A DNA stretch of 64,000 nucleotides, from NCBI RefSeq assembly GCF_000423825.1, contig NZ_AUIS01000004.1:1-64000 (forward strand). Direction: 5' to 3'. Positions 1,868 through 29,800 of the stretch are shown here, one piece after another (the stretch's first letter is position 1; each line of letters opens with the position of its first letter). The notes beneath the pieces are model-generated. The model did no database searches and was not told the origin of the DNA. It was given only the letters and a program-made list of their open reading frames with translations. The position numbers and the translations under genes are program-made. The stretch is from Thermithiobacillus tepidarius DSM 3134. GTDB lineage: Bacteria; Pseudomonadota; Gammaproteobacteria; Acidithiobacillales; Thermithiobacillaceae.

Positions 1868-2164
1868 TCAGGCGTGGGTGCGCTTGGCCACCAGCTCGAT
1901 GCCGAGCGCTTTCAGCACCGCCAGGATGGTCTTGAGCGTCGGATTGCCCCGCTCGCTGAAGGAGCGGTAGAGCTGTTCTCGCGAGAGCCCGGTTTCCTTG
2001 GCAATTTCGCTCATCCCGCGGGCGCGGGCAACCACACCCAGCGCGTGCGCGATGTAGCCGGCATCCCCGGATTCGAAGGCATCGGCCATGAAGGCCGCGA
2101 TGGCTTCATCCGAGCTTAAGAGTTCTGCTGGGTCGAAAGTTGTCAGGTGTTCAGTCATGGTCAT
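1868..2164 (-). CDS. Addiction-module antitoxin, HTH type (HI1420-like)
   Basis: This 98-residue protein begins MTMTEHLTTFDPAELLSSDE, a typical opening of the HI1420-type antidote family. The C-terminal half is an Xre-like helix-turn-helix (GMSEIAKETGLSREQLYRSF). It probably neutralises the toxin encoded just upstream and represses the operon. The start at 2164 is chosen because its ATG overlaps the toxin stop (ATGA), implying translational coupling; a second ATG lies at 2158. Gene order is toxin then antitoxin, as in HI1419/HI1420 and HigBA systems. Confidence 0.85.
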   Translation of the reverse strand: MTMTEHLTTFDPAELLSSDEAIAAFMADAFESGDAGYIAHALGVVARARGMSEIAKETGLSREQLYRSFSERGNPTLKTILAVLKALGIELVAKRTHA

Positions 2165-2457
2165 TCGCTCCACTCTGCGGCCAAGCGTTTGGCCGTCTTG
2201 ATGTCCCGGGCCTGCGAGTCTTTGTCGCCGCCGCACAGCAGGACGATGATCGTCGCGCCGTGCGACTTGAAATAGACCCGGTAGCCGGGGCCGTAGTGAA
2301 TTCGTAGCTCGCTGATGCCATCACCAACCGGTTCCACGTCGCCGGCCAGGCCGTAGGCCAGCCGGTCCAGGCGGGCGGCCACAATGGCGCGGGCCCGCTC
2401 GTCCCGCAGCTTCGTCCACCACTTCCTGAAGGTTTCGGTTTGCTTCAGCTCAATCAT
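2161..2457 (-). CDS. RelE/HigB-superfamily toxin (HI1419-like addiction module killer)
   Basis: The 98-residue product begins MIELKQTETFRKWWTKLRDE and contains HYGPGYRVYFKSHG followed by a strand ending LLCGGDKDSQ. These are hallmarks of the HI1419 'probable addiction module killer' family within the RelE/ParE fold. Family members are ribosome-dependent mRNA endonucleases; activity here is inferred. The gene overlaps the downstream antitoxin by 4 bases. A near-perfect 16-bp palindrome lies 10 bases upstream of its start and probably serves as operator. Confidence 0.85.
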   Translation of the reverse strand: MIELKQTETFRKWWTKLRDERARAIVAARLDRLAYGLAGDVEPVGDGISELRIHYGPGYRVYFKSHGATIIVLLCGGDKDSQARDIKTAKRLAAEWSE

Positions 2458-5201: not shown

Positions 5202-6053
5202 ATGGCAATTTTGAATGAAAAGGAAGAGGGGCTCTTGCGCGCCGCCTTGCATCATGGCGGGGTGCTCAGCGCCGCGCTGGCCGCCCGCCTGCTGGACTGC
5301 TCGCCGCAGTTCGCGCGCCGTCTGCTGGCGCGGCTGGGCGAGCTGGATTTGCTGGCTCCGGTGTACCTCAGCGGGCTGCCCGGCGGCACGCTGCACCTGG
5401 CGCCGACGCGACGCGCCGCCCGATTTTTCGGGCATCCGAATGCGGCCGCGGCGCGCACGGACCGGAGTGAAACGGACTTGCTGCGCGGCCTCGCGCGCTT
5501 CTGGTTTCGTGCCAGCCATCCGCTGGCAAACGGCGAACGGTTTTTGGACGGCGGCCGGGAGATTGCCGCGGAATTTGCCGCGCGGGAGATTCCCGTGCCG
5601 ACGCTCGGAATGCGCGCCGGCGATCCCGGCCGCGCGCGCTTTTCGGAAACGGTGATCGCCGCGGCCGAGTCCCTGCAGGTGTATGCCTTTCCGCCTGTGC
5701 ACGCGGCGCCGGAAACGGTGGTGCGCGGCACGCTGGCCCGGTTCGCCGATGCCCTGGGCAGCGTGCGCATCGGCTTTGTCATCGAGCGCCGGCGTGCGCC
5801 ACTCCTAGCACACGCCCTGGCGGCATTCGGCGCCATCGAGCAGCTGGCGCCCAAGACGCCGGAATCGGATCGATTGGCGGAGCTGCGCGAGCAGTTGGCC
5901 CGCGAGCGCGCGGCCGGCGCCGCGCCGGTGGCCCTGGCGCGCCTGGCGGGCGAAATCGCGGCCTTGGAAAAGGCCGCAAACCAGCCTGAAGCGCCGGGCG
6001 TTTCCGCAGTGGCAGGGGTCTTCCTGCCAAGCATCATCCATGATCTTTTTTGA
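5202..6053 (+). CDS. Winged-helix protein, possibly replication-relaxation-like (283 aa)
   Basis: ATG 5202 is preceded by GGGAGGGGA. Residues 5-75 read as a winged helix: a helical stretch (LLRAALHHGGVLSAALAARL), a recognition helix (SPQFARRLLARL) and a wing (LSGLPGGTLHLAPT). The middle is unassigned, and the C-terminus (about 215-265) is a charged helix likely to coil. The plan resembles replication-relaxation or mobilization accessory proteins of plasmids; this is a resemblance only. It ends 7 bases before the preferred start of the coupling-protein gene, so the two probably form one operon. Confidence 0.6.
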   Translation: MAILNEKEEGLLRAALHHGGVLSAALAARLLDCSPQFARRLLARLGELDLLAPVYLSGLPGGTLHLAPTRRAARFFGHPNAAAARTDRSETDLLRGLARFWFRASHPLANGERFLDGGREIAAEFAAREIPVPTLGMRAGDPGRARFSETVIAAAESLQVYAFPPVHAAPETVVRGTLARFADALGSVRIGFVIERRRAPLLAHALAAFGAIEQLAPKTPESDRLAELREQLARERAAGAAPVALARLAGEIAALEKAANQPEAPGVSAVAGVFLPSIIHDLF

Positions 6054-8034: not shown

Positions 8035-8161
8035 GTGAGAAGGAACCGCAACTGTGAGAAGGAGGAGACCATGAACGACTTTGCGTACATTTTCGCTGTG
8101 CTGCAAGGATACATACTCGACCGACGTGAGAAGGAGGAACTCATGAACGACTTTGCGTACA
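8035..8161 (+). repeat. Duplicated leader: ribosome site plus first codons
   Basis: A 36-base unit occurs twice, at 8054-8089 and 8126-8161, 72 bases apart with about three mismatches. Each copy holds GTGAGAAGGAGGA, a spacer, and ATGAACGACTTTGCGTACA, that is, ribosome site, start codon and the first five codons (MNDFAY). A third partial copy, GTGAGAAGGA, lies at 8035-8044. The 72-base offset keeps the reading frame. Confidence 0.85.
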
Positions 8162-8385
8162 CGATTACGTGCATGGATAGCGACAGCCTGCTTGAAGCCT
8201 TGTGCCATTGCGAAAGGGAAAAAGTCGGCCTGCAGTTTTTGCTTGGCTTGGTTGAAGATTCCAAGCGGCTTCAGGAGCTCAATGCCGAGCTGCAAGCCTG
8301 CATCGAGGCGAGCGCCTCAATTCGCGACGAAATGATGAATCGCCTGATGAATCGCCTGGAAGGAGGAAACCGTGGATTCCAGTAA
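8071..8385 (+). CDS. Small protein with two equivalent in-frame starts (104 or 80 aa)
   Basis: Two ATG codons, 8071 and 8143, each have their own identical strong ribosome site (GAAGGAGG) and both begin MNDFAY. They would give proteins of 104 and 80 residues. The shared C-terminal part (SDSLLEALCHCEREKVGLQF) is helical and probably coiled coil, ending with an MMNRLMNRLEGG repeat. No family is recognised. The 24-residue extension of the long form is encoded by the duplication itself, so the 80-residue form may be ancestral. It overlaps the next gene by 14 bases. Confidence 0.6.
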   Translation: MNDFAYIFAVLQGYILDRREKEELMNDFAYTITCMDSDSLLEALCHCEREKVGLQFLLGLVEDSKRLQELNAELQACIEASASIRDEMMNRLMNRLEGGNRGFQ

Positions 8386-8585: not shown

Positions 8586-9377
8586 ATGAAGGAGTTCGAC
8601 AAGCTGCGCGAGCTTTGGTCCACCCCGGAGAAACGGCCGCACCTGCTCGGTGCGGTCGCGGCGCTCCTGGGCGCCGTCCTGATTGCCGGGAGCATGGTGC
8701 TGGATGCCTTTTCCCGTTCGCCAACCCAAGCGATGCCGGTTGCCCCGGCGGCCGAGGCGCCCGCCGGCGCCGCAACCGCAGTCGCGGTGTCGACAGCGGC
8801 CACGGCGCCGGCGGTGTCCGTTTCAGAACCGGTTGCCCCGGTCCCTGCCGCGTTCCCCCTGGCGTATCCGATGCGGCCGGGCCTGCAGTTGAAGTACGCG
8901 GTACTCGCCGAGAGCGGACCACCCGCAGAGATCGGCATCGAGGAGATAGCCAACGGCTGGGGATCGAACTTGCCATCCGCCCCAATCGGCAAAGATTTCG
9001 ACCTGTCGGACAAGAATCTGGCCGTCGACGCGCTGGGCTTTATCCGCGTGGACAGGGAGGGTCCAAGTACCATCGCGCTCAAGATGGTCCGCACTCAGGA
9101 GCCTGGGGTTTGGCAAGCTGATCCGGGCGTCCAGGCTCAAATCTGGCTGGACGGCATTGAGCTTGGCAGGGTGACGGCGGAACAGTTTGGGCCGAGCGAA
9201 AAAAGCGGTATCTTTGCTACGCCGCCCCTTGCTGTGGGCTGGCACAAAGTCGCCGTGCGTTATGCCAGCTTGGCCCGCTGGCGGGCGTCGGTCCAAGTGC
9301 GCCTGCCGGGCGGTGTCTTCCAGGAGGCGCAGCCGTCGCTGCCAGAAAACAAAAACGAGGAAAGAAATCATGTTTAG
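8586..9377 (+). CDS. Membrane-anchored hypothetical protein with C-terminal beta domain (263 aa)
   Basis: I chose ATG 8586 rather than 8562, which lies inside the upstream gene. Residues 21-42 (LLGAVAALLGAVLIAGSMVL) are one membrane helix, followed by an Ala/Val/Pro-rich linker (about 45-95). The C-terminal 150 residues are rich in predicted strands, with QAQIWLDGIELGR and VGWHKVAVRYA, a pattern like PA14 or carbohydrate-binding beta sandwiches. A bitopic protein with an extracytoplasmic binding domain is inferred. Its stop overlaps the start of the AAA+ gene by 8 bases, so the two are probably co-produced. Confidence 0.6.
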   Translation: MKEFDKLRELWSTPEKRPHLLGAVAALLGAVLIAGSMVLDAFSRSPTQAMPVAPAAEAPAGAATAVAVSTAATAPAVSVSEPVAPVPAAFPLAYPMRPGLQLKYAVLAESGPPAEIGIEEIANGWGSNLPSAPIGKDFDLSDKNLAVDALGFIRVDREGPSTIALKMVRTQEPGVWQADPGVQAQIWLDGIELGRVTAEQFGPSEKSGIFATPPLAVGWHKVAVRYASLARWRASVQVRLPGGVFQEAQPSLPENKNEERNHV

Positions 9378-10752
9378 TGCTGTATTGCGTTTCCTGCAAA
9401 TGCGCCTGGGGCCGATCCCGGTTTGGGGTTGGCTCATCATCTTGGAGCTGGTCGCCTGGGTCATCAAATCCGCCGAGACCGTGTTAGGGCTGGTGGTGTT
9501 GGGCTTGATCGGCTACGCATTGCACAGCAACCAGAAGCAACAACCGCAGGCCGGCACGGTTCCGCAACCCCAGGAACCCTTGCCGCAAACCCAGCCGCCA
9601 CATCCCCCGGCCGAAACCGCATCCATTCCCACCGACCCGCAGCCGAGCCCGCAAGCCGCCGGCCCCGCGCCGCAGGCGCAGGCCGCGGCAGGGCCGGCAT
9701 TCGCGTTGCACGTCGCGCCTGGCGTTGAAGCCCGGCCGCCGTTGGCGTTCCGGCCGCTGTCGGAGGCCTCCACCCGGATCGTCGGACAGGAGGCCGGCTT
9801 GGCGGTGATCGAGCAGGGCCTGCGCCTGGCGCTGGAGGGCATGACCGGCGGGCGCGGCAAGCCGCTCGCCACATTCCTGCTGCTGGGGCCGTCCGGCGTG
9901 GGCAAGACCGAAACCGCCAAGTCCATTGCGGAGGTGATTTATGGTGACGCCAATCGCATTGCCCGCCTGAATTGCAACGAGTGCGTGGGCGAGGGGGGCC
10001 AGTGGCGCGCCTTCGGCCCGCCACGCGGTTATATAGGCTCTGACCAGGGCGGCCAGATCACCCAGGCAATAAAGCGCTTTGGCGGCCGCTGTGTGATCCT
10101 CTTCGACGAGCTGGAGAAGGGCAGCCGCGAGTTGTTCGACGGGCTCATGACGGGTTTGGATGAAGGCTGGCTTGAGGATGCCAGCTTCGGAGAGCGGATC
10201 TCGATCGAGGAATGCGTCCTGATCATGACCTCCAACGCCATCCGGGAAGAGGGCGCGGAGCTGAACGAGGATGGATTGCGGCGCGCCATCACCGAGTTTG
10301 AATCGGTGGATCCCCGGCTGGGCCGGATTCGCCCCTTCCGGCCGGAGTTTGTCGGGCGCATCGGGCGCGTGCTGGCCTATCGGCCGCTGGAGCGGGCGGT
10401 TTATGCCGAGATCGTGCGCCAACGCTGGCAGCAGCGCCACGCCCCGCGCGTGTACCAGGCCCGCGGGCTCTACGTGCTGGACATGACGCCGGCGGCGGCC
10501 GAGCTGGTCGTTTCCAAGCTCGGTCAAGGGGAGTTCGGGGCCCGGGCAGTGGATCGGGTCATCGAGGATCTGATGCTGGCCGGCTTGGCGAATGCGAACG
10601 TGCCGCAGGATGGGTTCATCTGGCTTTGGGATTATGATTCGGCGACAAGTCATCTGCGGCTGATTGCGCCGGCGGATGCCAGCGAGAGCGTGGACACGGC
10701 GGCGCTGGCCAGGCTGGCGGAAGCGCTGCACGCAAACAAGCAGGCTAGATGA
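9370..10752 (+). CDS. Membrane-anchored single-ring ClpB/ClpA-like AAA+ ATPase (460 aa)
   Basis: The N-terminus has a membrane hairpin (about 18-32 and 36-52), then a Pro/Gln/Ala linker (55-115). One AAA+ module of the ClpB second-ring type follows: RIVGQE (137-141), Walker A GPSGVGKT (173-180), pore loop RGYIG (219-223), Walker B CVILFDELEK (241-250), sensor-1 TSN (287-289), RPEFVGRI (324-331) and a sensor-2 GAR motif near 385. The pore tyrosine is kept, so threading of protein substrates is plausible. No first ring, M-domain or ClpP-docking loop is seen. A membrane-tethered Clp-type motor next to a coupling-protein-like ATPase is unusual. It is the last gene of the train. Confidence 0.8.
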   Translation: MFSAVLRFLQMRLGPIPVWGWLIILELVAWVIKSAETVLGLVVLGLIGYALHSNQKQQPQAGTVPQPQEPLPQTQPPHPPAETASIPTDPQPSPQAAGPAPQAQAAAGPAFALHVAPGVEARPPLAFRPLSEASTRIVGQEAGLAVIEQGLRLALEGMTGGRGKPLATFLLLGPSGVGKTETAKSIAEVIYGDANRIARLNCNECVGEGGQWRAFGPPRGYIGSDQGGQITQAIKRFGGRCVILFDELEKGSRELFDGLMTGLDEGWLEDASFGERISIEECVLIMTSNAIREEGAELNEDGLRRAITEFESVDPRLGRIRPFRPEFVGRIGRVLAYRPLERAVYAEIVRQRWQQRHAPRVYQARGLYVLDMTPAAAELVVSKLGQGEFGARAVDRVIEDLMLAGLANANVPQDGFIWLWDYDSATSHLRLIAPADASESVDTAALARLAEALHANKQAR

Positions 10753-10804
10753 GCACTCGACCCCGGAGCGCTTGCAGAGCCGGCGCTGACCCGTTCCACG
10801 GTCT

Positions 10805-10838
10805 GGCGATTGCGTTGCAATTTTGGCACGCAATCGCC
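10805..10838. repeat. 11-bp perfect inverted repeat after the AAA+ gene
   Basis: GGCGATTGCGT (10805-10815) and ACGCAATCGCC (10828-10838) are exact reverse complements around a 12-base spacer. No T-run follows, so an intrinsic terminator is not clearly indicated. It could end the operon transcript by another route or be a protein site. Confidence 0.7.
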
Positions 10839-10899
10839 GGTGGCGGTTATTCTGAACATTCCCATTGATACAATGGCTTATGTGTTCCCGTTCATCATC

Positions 10900-10936
10900 C
10901 TATAGATGCGATATGGATGCGATATCGCATCTATAG
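10900..10936. repeat. 15-bp perfect inverted repeat with GATGCGAT units
   Basis: CTATAGATGCGATAT (10900-10914) and its exact complement (10922-10936) flank a 7-base spacer. The inner 16 bases GATGCGATATCGCATC (10916-10931) are themselves a perfect palindrome, and GATGCGATAT is repeated directly with an 11-base period. Confidence 0.85.
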
Positions 10937-10957
10937 GGCGCGCAAGGACGGGTGGAG

Positions 10958-10993
10958 CATCGTTATCGCATCGATATCGATGCGATAACGATG
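10958..10993. repeat. 36-bp perfect palindrome
   Basis: The half-site CATCGTTATCGCATCGAT (10958-10975) is followed without spacer by its exact reverse complement (10976-10993). GATGCGAT then recurs at 10990, again 11 bases after the copy at 10979. Together with the neighbouring repeat this makes a dense cluster of GATGCGAT octamers. Confidence 0.9.
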
Positions 10994-11129
10994 CGATGTC
11001 TGATGGAAAAATCCTGGAGTGGCGCGGGCTTAGGTGGATGTCGGCGTGACTTTTTGCGCGTGCTTTTGTACGGGCTTCAGCATGGGTGTCCCCACGGCGG
11101 AGACTTGGACGGGGGAGTGTGCCTTGTGT

Positions 11130-11157
11130 GTGTTACTCTTGACGTAACGGGTAACAC
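11130..11157 (+). promoter_or_regulatory. Probable higBA promoter and operator
   Basis: GTGTTAC (11130-11136) and GTAACAC (11151-11157) form a 7-bp inverted repeat 16 bases upstream of the toxin start. TTGACG at 11140-11145 within it resembles a -35 element. This would be a natural site for HigA autorepression. Confidence 0.5.
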
Positions 11158-11173
11158 CCTGCTACCTTGCATC

Positions 11174-11452
11174 ATGATCCGATCTTTCCGCGACAAAGAC
11201 ACCGAGGCACTGTTTGCCGGCCGGTCCGTGAGGCGCTTTGAGAGGTTTCGAGCGCAGGCCGAGCGGCGCTTGCAAATTCTCGATAGCGCCACCTGCATTG
11301 AGGATCTGGCGCAACTGCCCAGCAACCGCTTTGAAGCGTTGCGTGGCGATCGCCAGGGGCAGTTCAGCATCCGCATCAATGCTCAGTGGCGTGTCTGCTT
11401 CACGTGGCGGGAGGGTGGGCCGCACCAAGTGGAAATTGTGGACTATCACTGA
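11174..11452 (+). CDS. higB: HigB-type toxin (92 aa)
   Basis: The product begins MIRSFRDKDTEALFAGRSVR and contains FSIRINAQWRVCFTW and a C-terminal EIVDYH. This is the typical HigB plasmid-maintenance killer signature (RelE superfamily, ribosome-dependent mRNA cleavage). I chose ATG 11174 because it gives the standard 92-residue length; a longer upstream frame reads through the palindromic region and has no family support. The antitoxin gene follows 15 bases downstream. Confidence 0.9.
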   Translation: MIRSFRDKDTEALFAGRSVRRFERFRAQAERRLQILDSATCIEDLAQLPSNRFEALRGDRQGQFSIRINAQWRVCFTWREGGPHQVEIVDYH

Positions 11453-11467
11453 CCTGGAGGTGACGCC

Positions 11468-11767
11468 ATGACCCCGAACAATGCCATGCGCCCGATTCAT
11501 CCTGGCGAGATCTTGCGTGAGGAAATGGACGCATTGGGGCTGTCCGCGCGCGCGCTGGCGCAGGCGCTCGATGTGGCGCCCAACCGTATTACCGGTATCC
11601 TAAACGGCGAGCGGGCGCTGACGGCGGACACCGCGCTACGTCTTGCGCGCTACTTCGGCACCGCGCCGGAGTTCTGGCTGAATCTGCAGACCGCCTACGA
11701 CCTGCGCCTGACGCAACGCGAGAAGGGCGAGGAGATTGCCCGCCACGTCCATCCGCACGCAGCCTGA
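11468..11767 (+). CDS. higA: HigA-type antitoxin (99 aa)
   Basis: The protein starts MTPNNAMRPIHPGEILREE, the standard HigA/VapI opening. It carries an Xre-type helix-turn-helix (LSARALAQALDVAPNRITGI), followed by the conserved FGTAPEFWLNLQTAYDL. It should bind and neutralise HigB and repress the operon. The ribosome site CTGGAGGTG precedes ATG 11468. Confidence 0.92.
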   Translation: MTPNNAMRPIHPGEILREEMDALGLSARALAQALDVAPNRITGILNGERALTADTALRLARYFGTAPEFWLNLQTAYDLRLTQREKGEEIARHVHPHAA

Positions 11768-11807: not shown

Positions 11808-12797
11808 TCATTCTGAGGCGGTTGCGCGGTACTGCAGTTTCTTTGCCAGATCCTCAGCCCGGAGGTGGGTGTAGCGCTTGAGCATCTGCAGGGTGGAATG
11901 CCCGGTAATGGAAGCCACTTCCATCAGGTTCAATCCCCGTTCGAACAGCCGGCTGGTAGCTTCATGACGCAGGTCGTGGAAGCGTAGATCCTGGAGGCCA
12001 GCCGCCTTGCAGGCGCGATCGAACGCCTGGGTGATGCTGTCCGGCCGGAATCCCCAGATCATGCCATCCAAGCGACGAGGCAGGTTTTGCAGGATGTGCA
12101 CGGCTTCCTGGGAGAGTGGAACCCAGCGCGTTTTGGTCTTGCCTTCCGGCACCAGCAGCACGCGTTTTTTAAAGTCCACGTGCTCCCAGCGCATGCGCGC
12201 CATTTCCGAGCGACGCATGGCGGTTTCGATGGCGAAACAGCACAGGGCGTCATGGGGAGCTGGCAGCGCGGCCAGGAGCGCGCCGCCTTCACCGGGCCGC
12301 AAGCGCCGATCACGTCCCTCCGGCAGCTTGGGCATCTTGATCTGCTGCACAGGATTGCCGCCAGGCAAGGCAATGCCCCATTCACGCATGGCCACGTTGA
12401 GCAAGCGCGAAAGCACCGACAGGTCATGCTTGACCGTCTGGGGCCCCACCTCCTGCAAGCGTTCGTCCCGGTATTTCGCTATCAGCGCCGAGGTGATAGC
12501 CGCCAAGGAGTAGCTGCCCAGGCGCTCTCTCAGGGCGCGGATATGTGGCAGCGTGCCGGTAATGGATTTCTTGGTGGGCAGGACTTCGCGTTCGTAGCGG
12601 TCCAAGGCTTCGGCCAGGGTGGTTTGTTCCGCCTCGGCCCGGGAGACGAAAACGCCCCGGTCCATTTCGGACTCCACCAGGCGCGCCCAGCGTTCCGCCT
12701 CGGCCCGGGTGTTGAAGGTACGGGATTGCACCGGGTAGCCCTTGCGGCGAATTTTTGCCCGCCATTGCAGGTCACCGCGCCGTTCGAACGTCGCCAT
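11808..12797 (-). CDS. Tyrosine-type site-specific integrase (329 aa)
   Basis: This is a full-length phage-type integrase. It has an N-terminal arm-binding domain (DLQWRAKIRRKGYPVQSRTF), a core-binding domain (about 60-160), and a catalytic domain with every key residue: Arg195 (AMRRSEM), Lys222, His274 and Arg277 (FHDLRHEA), His300 (ITGHST) and Tyr309 (KRYTHL). It probably catalyses insertion of this element at the adjacent tRNA-Arg gene, whose 3' end lies about 100 bases from the integrase start. The paired TGTCCCAAAA repeats in between may be arm sites. Confidence 0.95.
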   Translation of the reverse strand: MATFERRGDLQWRAKIRRKGYPVQSRTFNTRAEAERWARLVESEMDRGVFVSRAEAEQTTLAEALDRYEREVLPTKKSITGTLPHIRALRERLGSYSLAAITSALIAKYRDERLQEVGPQTVKHDLSVLSRLLNVAMREWGIALPGGNPVQQIKMPKLPEGRDRRLRPGEGGALLAALPAPHDALCCFAIETAMRRSEMARMRWEHVDFKKRVLLVPEGKTKTRWVPLSQEAVHILQNLPRRLDGMIWGFRPDSITQAFDRACKAAGLQDLRFHDLRHEATSRLFERGLNLMEVASITGHSTLQMLKRYTHLRAEDLAKKLQYRATASE

Positions 12798-12834
12798 GAA
12801 TTGCCCCTCCCTGGGTCTGATCCTTGCGAGTCAG

Positions 12835-12855
12835 TGTCCCAAAATTGTCCCAAAA
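12835..12855. repeat. Paired TGTCCCAAAA direct repeats, possible integrase arm sites
   Basis: TGTCCCAAAA occurs at 12835-12844 and 12846-12855, with an 11-base period (one helical turn), between the integrase start and the tRNA-Arg gene. The position and spacing fit accessory binding sites of the integrase near the attachment site. Confidence 0.45.
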
Positions 12856-12900: not shown

Positions 12901-12976
12901 TGGCGCCCCGGGCAGGAATCGAACCTGCGGCCTACCGCTTAGGAGGCGGTTGCTCTATCCACTGGGCTACCGGGGC
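12901..12976 (-). tRNA. tRNA-Arg (anticodon CCU)
   Basis: The minus strand gives a 76-base cloverleaf with acceptor GCCCCGG pairing with CCGGGGC, discriminator G and an encoded CCA. The anticodon loop CTCCTAA (anticodon CCT) is closed by ACCGC/GCGGT, and the T loop is TTCGATT. The 3' end faces the integrase, so it is the likely attachment site. Confidence 0.97.
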
Positions 12977-13019: not shown

Positions 13020-14024
13020 TCAGAAGACGAGCACCGTGAAGTAGGCGAAGTAGCACAGGCCGTTGAAGACCATGTGGATGGGGCGCAGGGTGCCGCGCCG
13101 GTGCATGAGGAAGAGCCAGAGGCTGGCGAGCAGGGTCAGGCCGGCGCCCAGGAGCACATCTGGGGTGGGTTGCCAAGGGGTGAGCATGACGCCGAGGGCG
13201 GGGAGGATGGACCCTTGGAACACCATGGCGCCGGTGATGTTGCCGAAGGCCAGGGTATCCTTGCCGCGGCGGATCCACAGGATGCTGTTGACCTTCTCGG
13301 GCAGCTCCGTCGCCACCGGGATGACCAGCAGGGACAGGGCCAGGGCGGACATGCCGAGCAGCACCGAGATGTGCTCGACGCCGGCCACGAAGCCGTGCGC
13401 GCCGGCGATGATCGCACCGAAGCCGAGGCCAAGCTGGGCGAGGATGGTGAGCAGGTTTTCCGGCAGGTGCAGCTTGCTCAGATACAGCGGAGCCTCGGCT
13501 TCGGTGCCGTGGCCTTCGTTGACCAGGCCGGCCGAGGCGCGCAGGGTCAGCATGATGTAGAAGAAGTACATCAGCACCAGGCTGATGCCGATGACGCCGC
13601 GGGTCAGGGTCTGTTCGATGGGCACGAACATGGCGATGACGCCCAGCGAGAAGGCGGCAAGGAACCAGCTCAGGTCGCGCTGGAAGCCGCTGCGCTCGGG
13701 CGTGAAGTCGCCGGCCCAGCCGCGCCGGCGGGCGGCGAAGTAGGCCATGAGGAAGATCGACAGGGTGGAGAGCATCATGGGCGCGCCAAGGATGGCGCCG
13801 ACGCCCACCTCTTCGCCCACGCGCTGGCTGCTGGCCGCGCCGCCCAGGATGGCGATGATGGGCACCATCGCCTCCGGCAGGGCGGTTCCCACTGCCGCGA
13901 AGATGGAGCCGGTCACGCCCTCGGAGATCTTGAGCCGTTCGCCCAGGTGTTCCAGGGCGTTGGTGAAGGCTTCCGCCCCGATCAGGATGACGATCAGGGA
14001 AACGAGCAGCAGCAGATAATCCAT
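13020..14024 (-). CDS. Calcium/cation antiporter, CaCA superfamily (334 aa)
   Basis: CaCA proteins exchange Ca2+ or Na+ for protons or other cations at the inner membrane. This one has about ten hydrophobic helices and the two alpha-repeats that form the ion site: SIFAAVGTALPEAMVPIIA near residue 45 and SLLVIPVATELPEKVNSI near residue 245, each with the conserved acidic residue. I use ATG 14024 (MDYLLLLVSL); a longer start seven codons upstream is less likely, as GGGAACAAG lies just before 14024. It sits between two tRNA genes and looks like a single-gene transcript outside the element. Confidence 0.88.
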   Translation of the reverse strand: MDYLLLLVSLIVILIGAEAFTNALEHLGERLKISEGVTGSIFAAVGTALPEAMVPIIAILGGAASSQRVGEEVGVGAILGAPMMLSTLSIFLMAYFAARRRGWAGDFTPERSGFQRDLSWFLAAFSLGVIAMFVPIEQTLTRGVIGISLVLMYFFYIMLTLRASAGLVNEGHGTEAEAPLYLSKLHLPENLLTILAQLGLGFGAIIAGAHGFVAGVEHISVLLGMSALALSLLVIPVATELPEKVNSILWIRRGKDTLAFGNITGAMVFQGSILPALGVMLTPWQPTPDVLLGAGLTLLASLWLFLMHRRGTLRPIHMVFNGLCYFAYFTVLVF

Positions 14025-14085
14025 TCTTGTTCCCGTTGGCCACACGAAAACGGGGTAGAACCCATGGATTCTACCCCGGTGAATT

Positions 14086-26848: not shown

Positions 26849-29800
26849 ATGTCCTCAAGGCTGAAAACCGAGCGAGCGTCCATGGCGACAGAAGAGCGCG
26901 GCGGCAACGAGGCCGCCCGGGAAAAGCTTTGGTCTCCCATAGGCGGCATCCTGGTCACCATTGCGTTGCTGCTGCCCATCGAGCTGCTGCACCAGACCGT
27001 GCTGCAGATCGTCAATCCCAGTCCCATCATCCTCACCGCGGTGGTATACGCCGCCTACAGCGGCGGTCTGCGCTCGGGACTCATCAGCGCGGCCATCGCC
27101 CTGGCCTACGTGGTCTACTACTTTTCCGAGCCGGGCCAGTTGTTCCAGTACAGCGATCATGATTCCGAAAGCCTGATCATCCTGGTCTTTTCCATCCTGC
27201 TGGTGGTGCCCATGGTGGCTTTTCTGAAGCGCCGCGCCCGGACCGCCGTGCGCGAGCAGATCGCCCGCGGGCGGGCGGAGCTGCGGGTGCGCGAAACCCA
27301 GCGCCAGCAGAAGTGGCTGGAGACCGTGCTCGACCGCATGCCCACGCCGCTGCTCCTGACCGAGCCGAATTCCGGGCAGGTGCTGTTTGCCAACACGGCG
27401 GCCAAGGAGCTCACCGAGGCCGTCGCGCCGAGCGGCGCCGCGGCGCTCCAGCCCGCCGCCGGCGCCGAGGATGCCCCCCTGGAAACCGCGGACGACCAGA
27501 TGCTCTGCGTGCGCGCCGCGCGGGGCGAGTACGCCAATATCTTCCGCCTGCAGTGGCGCACCTCCGCCGGGCTGCGCTCGTACATCACGCGCACCAGCAA
27601 CCTGCCGGCCATGTACGGCCATCCGGAGGCCGTGCTGATGGCCTTCGAGGACATCACGGAGCTGAAGCGGGCGGAGGATCTGTCCAGCCGCCTGGGCCGC
27701 ATTCTGGATGACTCGGTCAACGAGATCTACGTCTTCGATGCCGCCTCGCTGCGCTTCATCCAGGTCAACCGGGGCGCCCTGCGCAATCTGGGCTACTCCG
27801 CCGCCGAGATGGCGCGCAAGACCGTCCTGGACCTGAAGCCCATGACCCTGGCGGAGTTCGAAGCCCTCGCCGAACCCCTGCACAGCGGCAGGCAAAATCA
27901 GGTCCTCTTCGAGAGCGAGCATCGGCGCAAGGACGGCAGCCGTTATCCCGTGGAGGTCCGGCTGCACCTGTCGACGGCCGAAAAGCCGCCGGTCTTCGTG
28001 GCCATCGTGCAGGACATCAGCGAGCGCCGTCAGGCCGAGGACGCCTTGCGCCAGGCGATGCTGATCATCGAGAACAGTCCGGCGGTGATCTTCCAGTGGA
28101 AGGCGGAGCCCGGCTGGCCGGTGGAATACGTCTCCAGCAACGTGGCCCGCTTCGGCTATCGCGCCGAAGAGTTTCTGTCGGGCGGTCTGGGTTATGCCGC
28201 CATCATTCATCCCGACGACCTGGCGCGCATCCAGGCGGAGGTGGCCGAGAAGACGCAGGCGAGCAGCCCCACCTTCAGCCAGGTCTATCGCATCTGCACC
28301 GGCACCGGCGGGGTGCGCTGGGTGGAGGATTACACCACCATCGAGCAGGACGCCGACGGCCAGGTCACCCACTACCAGGGCGTCATTCTCGACATCACCG
28401 AGCGCAAGCAGGCGGAGAACGCCCTGCGCGAGCGCGAGGAGCAGTTCCGCGCCACCTTCGACCAGGCGGCGGTCGGCATCGCCCACGTGGCGCCCAGCGG
28501 GCAGTGGCTGCTGGTGAACGACAGGTTCTGCGAGATTCTGGGCTATGAGCGGGGCGAGCTGCTGCAGCGCAGCTGGATGGACGTGACCTATCCCGAAGAT
28601 GTCGAAGACGACCTTGAGCACCTTGGTCGGATTCTGGGCAACCAGGTTCAGCACTACACTAAAAGAAAACGTTACATCCAGAAAAACGGCACGCCGATCT
28701 GGGTGAATCTGACCCTGTCTCTGGTCCGTACGCCGGCCGGAGAACCGAAGTATTTCATAACTGTCATTGAAGATATTACCCAAACCAAGCAGGCGGAAGA
28801 GGAGCTGAAGAAGGCGAACGAGTTCCGCGAAAAGGTGCTGGAAAGCGCAACGAACGCCATTTTCGCATTGAATCTGGGGGGCTATTTCACGCTGCTCAAC
28901 CGGCGCGCCTCCGAGATCAGCGGCTATGCCGCCGACGAGCTCATCGGCCAGCCCTTTGCCAAGCTCTTCTCTCCGGAAACGCTGGGCGCGGTGCAGGAGC
29001 AGATCAACCGCACCACCGGGCGCGGGGAAGAGATCCGCAACTACGAGGTGGAGCTGACCCGCAAGGACGGCAGCAAGCGCATGATCAGCTTCAGCGTGGT
29101 GCCGCTGGCCGAGGACGGCCGGGTGATCGGCTCCGTGGGCACCGCCGAGGACATCACCGAGCGCAAGCAGGCGGAGGAGGAGGTGCGCCGCCTGAATGCG
29201 GAGCTGGAGCAGCGGGTGGAAGAGCGGACGGCGGAACTGACGGCCGTGAACCGGGAGCTGGAGGCGTTCAGCTATTCGGTGTCGCACGATTTGCGCGCGC
29301 CGCTGCGCGCCATCGACGGCTTCAGCCAGGCGCTGCTGGAGGACTATGCCGATCGCCTGGACGGCGAGGGCATCCGCCATCTCGAGCGGGTGCGGGCCGC
29401 CACCCAGCGCATGGGCCAGCTCATCGACGATCTGCTGAATCTCTCCCGGGTCACGCGCAGCGAGATGCACCGGGAGCGGGTGAACCTGAGCGCCATTGCC
29501 CAGCGCTTTGCCGAAGAGCTGCGCGCCAGCCAGCCGCAACGGCAGGTGGAGTTCGTCATCGCGCCGAACGTGACCGCCCGCGGCGACGCTCGCCTGTTGC
29601 AGGTGGTGCTGGAGAATCTGCTGCGCAACGCCTGGAAATTCACCAGCAAGCACGAGCGGGCGCGCATCGAGTTCGGCGTGACGCAGCGCGACGGCAAACG
29701 GACTTATTTCGTGCGCGACGACGGCGCCGGCTTCGACATGAGCTATGCCCACAAGCTCTTCGGCGCCTTCCAGCGCCTGCACGGCGCCACCGAGTTCGAG

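Follow-up and report, generated by a model that had tools for sequence, protein, structure and literature searches.

In the sulfur bacterium Thermithiobacillus tepidarius DSM 3134T, we observed a compact array of perfect inverted repeats, built from a single octamer and situated in a non-coding gap of a mobile element. Within the window (the whole stretch of 64,000 nucleotides that we analysed, which starts at the beginning of contig C2), the array follows a train of genes encoding a homologue of the relaxase MobK and a coupling protein. We interpret it as a multi-site protein platform that acts in cis and most probably serves as the origin of transfer (oriT) of a MobK-type module on an integrative mobilizable or conjugative element, a reading that we rank first and hold tentatively, with less than even confidence. 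An origin of transfer was not among the functions put forward in the initial annotation of this DNA, and was suggested by the homology of the protein P0006 to MobK. The annotation's broader view, a multi-site binding platform on a mobile element, remains the best reading. Among the more specific options under its headings of replication or partition, recombination and operon-switch sites, a higBA switch, a ParA-type partition site and a DnaA-dependent origin are now disfavoured.

The gap that holds the array (10753–11173, 421 bp, no strand assigned) lies between an AAA+ ATPase gene and higB. IR-C (10805–10838) has perfect 11-bp arms, GGCGATTGCGT and ACGCAATCGCC (10805–10815 and 10828–10838), around a 12-base spacer, the arm length being that described initially, and is followed by a small inverted repeat or hairpin, CCATTG-ATA-CAATGG (10862–10876). 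IR-A (10899–10937) consists of perfect 16-bp arms, CCTATAGATGCGATAT, on either side of the 7-base spacer GGATGCG, and IR-B (10957–10994) is a perfect palindrome of 38 bp; the spacer and the perfect symmetry had been recognised before, with the lengths understated at 15 bp for the arms and 36 bp for the palindrome. The octamer GATGCGAT occurs six times inside 93 bp, in both orientations and at all of the previously listed positions: 10905(+), 10916(+) and 10924(−) in IR-A, and 10965(−), 10979(+) and the start of 10990(+) in IR-B. Successive forward copies are spaced by 11, 63 and 11 bp, equivalent to 1, 6 and 1 turns at 10.5 bp per turn, which agrees with the earlier remark that each forward pair is 11 bases, or one helical turn, apart, and the reverse copies are separated by 41 bp, near whole helical turns. 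This phasing is suggestive, given the few data points.

The array is far above chance expectation, as had been claimed for its density. The longest perfect arm in the gap is 19 nt, whereas 2,000 dinucleotide shuffles averaged 5.7 and never exceeded 11, and the remainder of the 64-kb window also reaches 11 at most. Similarly, a single octamer is clustered at six copies per 100 bp in the array, against three or fewer both in shuffles and in the rest of the window. Nowhere else in the non-coding part of C2:1–12949 are inverted repeats this long, and the array occurs once in the T. tepidarius genome. That the site is both extremely non-random and non-coding counts in favour of an oriT. As single-stranded DNA, the array region folds with z = −8.2, and a transcript of it would also form very stable hairpins (z −7.9), which would suit a role at the RNA level for the AAA+ operon, as a transcription stop, a protected mRNA 3′ end or an attenuator. 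However, the large hairpins lack a T-run behind them, ruling out an intrinsic terminator in line with the initial annotation, no Rfam family was found at threshold (sub-threshold matches were chance matches only), and the reuse and phasing of the octamers have no obvious use in RNA, making this role very improbable.

The array resides about 1.9 kb from an attachment site, inside one end of its element. A tyrosine integrase (11808–12797, minus strand; Pfam Phage_integrase) faces tRNA-Arg(CCT), of which the 49-bp 3′ part forms attR (12901–12949, minus strand) and is repeated exactly at C28:4149–4197. An arm-like repeat, TGTCCCAAAATTGTCCCAAAA, at 12830–12855 has its second copy near the other element end, at C28:4023–4048, and arm-like TGTCCCAAAA repeats are found on the element side of both 49-bp att copies. 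Since the att repeat is present on both contigs and arm-like repeats accompany both copies, the element comprises C28:1–4197 and C2:1–12949, with an assembly gap between them. Judged from the sequence, these repeats show that the array is carried by a mobile element inserted into tRNA-Arg(CCT). The octamers are apparently not used by the integrase, and arm-like TGTCCCAAAATTGTCCCAAAA repeats are present at both ends. Elsewhere on the element, the left end carries a BrnT-like toxin ORF, a neighbouring antitoxin-like ORF and an HVO_A0114-family winged-helix gene (C28:2091–4044), and a toxin-antitoxin pair at 1868–2457 (minus strand) shares 79% DNA identity with a pair annotated in a plasmid record of Bordetella pertussis.

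Next to the array is a higBA toxin-antitoxin cassette that has an operator to itself (11129–11767, plus strand; Pfam). In the sister genus, the same cassette, with an operator region 87% identical, has a vapBC-like pair upstream in place of the array. The cassette is therefore separate from the array, and we rejected the proposal that the array is a higBA switch. A ParA-type partition role is disfavoured as well, as no ParA-family gene for type I partition was found on C28:1–4197 or C2:1–12949, the two parts of an element with an assembly gap; among the ParA-family hits of the genome, those on C27 and C8 were retrieved, and the small gene on C27 was rejected as carboxysomal.

The 421-bp gap has a higher AT content than the element and is among the lowest-GC DNA between 8 and 13.5 kb. 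This composition would fit a role in replicating the element after excision, with an initiator binding to the octamers, as would a protein encoded at the left element end (C28:583–1721), which has weak STY4528-type or replication-initiator similarity and adjoins a small sigma-factor-like protein. However, the array contains neither a DnaA box, even at one mismatch, nor an AT-rich unwinding stretch (the best 40-mer has 67% AT), so that a DnaA-dependent origin is disfavoured, and some 5 kb, including attP, separate the array from the replication-like gene, which has a large non-coding gap of its own. We consider an origin of replication unlikely. In the gap before the replication-initiator-like and sigma-factor-like genes there is a 21-bp GC-rich inverted repeat (C28:1884–1936).

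Upstream of the array, the gene train runs on the plus strand, beginning with P0006 (3082–4866), a MobK-like tyrosine-recombinase-type protein. It is followed by a putative winged-helix protein (5202–6053), a candidate DNA-binding accessory that had no match in family searches and whose structure model is of low confidence, too poor for use. The VirD4/TraG-type coupling protein (T4CP) P0004 (6040–7863; Pfam TraG-D_C) is 33–35% identical to its homologue on the Agarilytica plasmid pSU3, and searches based on it returned distant relatives only, at about 30–35%. The train continues with the membrane protein P0003 (8562–9377), for which relatives were not found, and an AAA+ ATPase with a ClpB-like D2 domain (9187–10752), whose true start codon is internal to the listed ORF and which is probably membrane-anchored. 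Over its AAA core, this ATPase is 47% identical to one encoded by megaplasmids of Acidithiobacillus caldus, its best plasmid match, near which the array is absent; the search for AAA+ relatives was swamped by ClpB-type proteins. In the small ORF at 8035–8385, we observed a short tandem duplication (8035–8160) in which the coding start MNDFAY is present twice.

P0006 is a clear MobK homologue by sequence comparison, with 27% identity to MobK of pIGRK over 212 aa (pairwise blastp, E 1.6e-15), far stronger than its match to the integrase of its own element (E 0.023). R431, K456, Y529, R532, H555 and Y564 of P0006 align with the MobK catalytic residues (R, K, Y-x-x-R, H and Y). The closest characterized homologue of this protein, initially labelled recombinase-like, is a relaxase. 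MobK has been demonstrated to act in conjugation as a relaxase of the tyrosine-recombinase (TR) type, of which only three had been described by 2021, with an unclear mode of action (PMC8152469). As P0006 is homologous to this proven relaxase, it is a candidate relaxase itself. A TR-type relaxase of this family would be expected to lack core-binding and arm-binding domains; P0006 has a long N-terminal part of no recognised fold, and its AlphaFold model is of low confidence. The closest plasmid homologue is in Paracoccus pCP157_17 (E 1.9e-24). A homologue in a gammaproteobacterial MAG (L022) retrieves pSU3 and pIGRK-family plasmids by tblastn, pIGRK included, among them small Klebsiella and Escherichia plasmids. 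The pair of recombinase-like and T4CP genes is common to the T. tepidarius element, pSU3 and this MAG, whose cluster also has a winged-helix gene of a length similar to that at 5202–6053, with undetectable sequence similarity to it.

Tyrosine-recombinase core sites such as loxP, dif and the TnpI IRS have an arm-spacer-arm geometry. IR-A (16-7-16) matches this geometry, and with the catalytic residues of P0006 intact, the array might be a crossover or resolution site of this enzyme, with IR-A as the core and IR-B as an accessory site. Yet the closest characterized homologue of P0006 is not a resolvase, and the array is single-copy, 6 kb from the gene and devoid of a dif-like arm. We regard a crossover site as quite unlikely, slightly more so than an origin of replication.

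An element that encodes a relaxase and a coupling protein requires an oriT. Our preference for the array as this oriT draws on several observations. Firstly, P0006 is homologous to a proven TR-type relaxase with its catalytic residues aligned, and the T4CP sits in the same gene train, as it does in pSU3 and the MAG. Secondly, TR-type oriTs are short stretches rich in inverted repeats: that of SGI1 is a 125-bp non-coding stretch with several inverted repeats (PMC6414798), and that of pIGRK is a 186-bp non-coding stretch with several inverted repeats plus direct repeats (PMC8152469). The array is likewise short, non-coding, made up of inverted repeats and carried by a mobile element, and is by far the strongest inverted-repeat site on C2:1–12949. 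Lastly, long inverted repeats are usual in MobK-like plasmids about 160–450 bp upstream of the relaxase gene; together with the nature of TR-type oriTs and the strength of the array, these place an oriT first in our ranking. In three unrelated MobK-like plasmids, the inverted-repeat spacer is 7 bases long, as in IR-A (p about 0.013, post hoc). In several unrelated MobK-like plasmids (L167–L176), an inverted repeat whose ends read CATTAT...ATAATG lies about 160–450 bp upstream of the relaxase-like gene; it may represent an oriT or operator element shared across this family.

If the array is an oriT, the integrase would excise the element out of tRNA-Arg(CCT). The octamers would be bound by an accessory, for instance the winged-helix protein, or by the MobK-like enzyme, and the bound protein would load the MobK-like enzyme onto the palindromes. 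Using the conserved tyrosine, this enzyme would cut one strand, after which the T4CP encoded nearby would dock the nicked complex to a secretion channel. We infer both the placement of the oriT in the array, rather than in another gap of the element, and the candidate identity of the binding protein; P0006 would presumably act at the array.

Several observations count against an oriT. The array is 6 kb from the P0006 gene, even if it closes the gene train to which P0006 belongs. The known MobK and MpsA oriTs, in pIGRK and SGI1, adjoin the relaxase gene, an adjacency that is frequent and no strict requirement for an oriT. The pIGRK oriT motif AGCGA is absent from the array (the oriTs of known members also differ from one another), the outermost inverted-repeat pair of the pIGRK oriT is dispensable, no nic site can be named in the array, and a large gap of the element has another long GC-rich inverted repeat, at C28:1884–1936. 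A related element carrying the array was not found either: array and motif searches in plasmids, phages, viral contigs and genomes of the order and class returned no related array, the 421-bp gap has no DNA relative among order genomes, plasmids and phages, and the spaced octamer pair was found in 0 of 368 other genomes sampled from the class, the 17 viral matches to it being at about chance level. In the literature, we found no paper treating these octamer palindromes. Two further motifs were dropped: a G-quadruplex-type motif, carried by 316 of 318 windows of this GC-rich DNA, and an IncP-like hexamer, ATCCTG, just after IR-B, which is expected by chance, no MOBP relaxase being seen on C28:1–4197 or C2:1–12949.

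The main rival to an oriT, which we judge possible but doubtful, is that the array is a multi-copy operator or a stability (centromere-like) site bound by an oligomerizing DNA-binding protein of the element, in the manner of a KfrA operator. The operator of RA3 KfrA, comprising five 9-bp repeats in both orientations that are found nowhere else in the plasmid, is the same style of site (PMC7783346), and the helical phase of the octamers is also consistent with such a role, as are the repeat-built palindromes that both transfer-module relatives, pSU3 and the MAG, carry just upstream of kfrA. However, searching the genome for the KfrA family (KfrA_N) gave nothing above cut-off, no gene starts directly downstream of the array, with higB about 176 bp away behind its own operator, and both parts of the element lack a detectable ParA-family gene. 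The palindromes of the relatives, directly upstream of kfrA at 13987–14027 in the MAG and at 27090–27123 in pSU3 (L007), resemble the RA3 operator. In pSU3, dispersed ACTCATTTACTCA-type palindromes (503–536, 1528–1565, 1748–1775, 2914–2941 and 29364–29397) surround a ParA-like ATPase and a small ORF; a partition or regulon site is possible for these.

An oriT may, more speculatively, be of a new design, with helically phased octamers that make up two perfect palindromes and are recognised by a large MobK-type relaxase together with a coupling protein of the same element, which we put forward as a conjecture more apt to fail than to hold. If true, it would represent a new branch of TR-type conjugation modules, common to Thermithiobacillus, Agarilytica pSU3 and a gammaproteobacterial MAG. 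The combination of a MobK-like enzyme, a coupling protein and a compact, ordered palindrome site would provide a clean substrate for studying how TR-type relaxases choose and cut DNA. Such an element would also indicate that pSU3 and other MobK-like plasmids, which are non-mobilizable by standard typing, may be transferable after all.

Compared with known systems, the array shares with tyrosine-recombinase core sites (loxP, dif and the TnpI IRS) the inverted arms around a 7-base spacer and extra inverted and direct repeats, but differs in that its octamers point inward in IR-A and outward in IR-B, with neither a second copy nor a dif arm. KfrA operators (RA3 OK, pSU3 and the MAG) are likewise made of a short repeat in both orientations, closely packed and unique in the replicon; unlike them, the array neither adjoins a kfrA gene nor sits at the promoter of the next gene. 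With the TR-type modules (MobK, TcpM and MpsA of pIGRK, pCW3 and SGI1), the element has in common a homologous catalytic protein retaining all catalytic residues of MobK, albeit one of 594 aa compared with 242 aa for MobK, and, as in SGI1, an integrative element is combined with a short non-coding site rich in inverted repeats. In contrast to the oriTs of pIGRK, pCW3 and SGI1, and as judged by motif, the array lacks the pIGRK motif AGCGA and has long perfect palindromes built from one octamer, and in contrast to all three modules, its element carries a T4CP in the same gene train.
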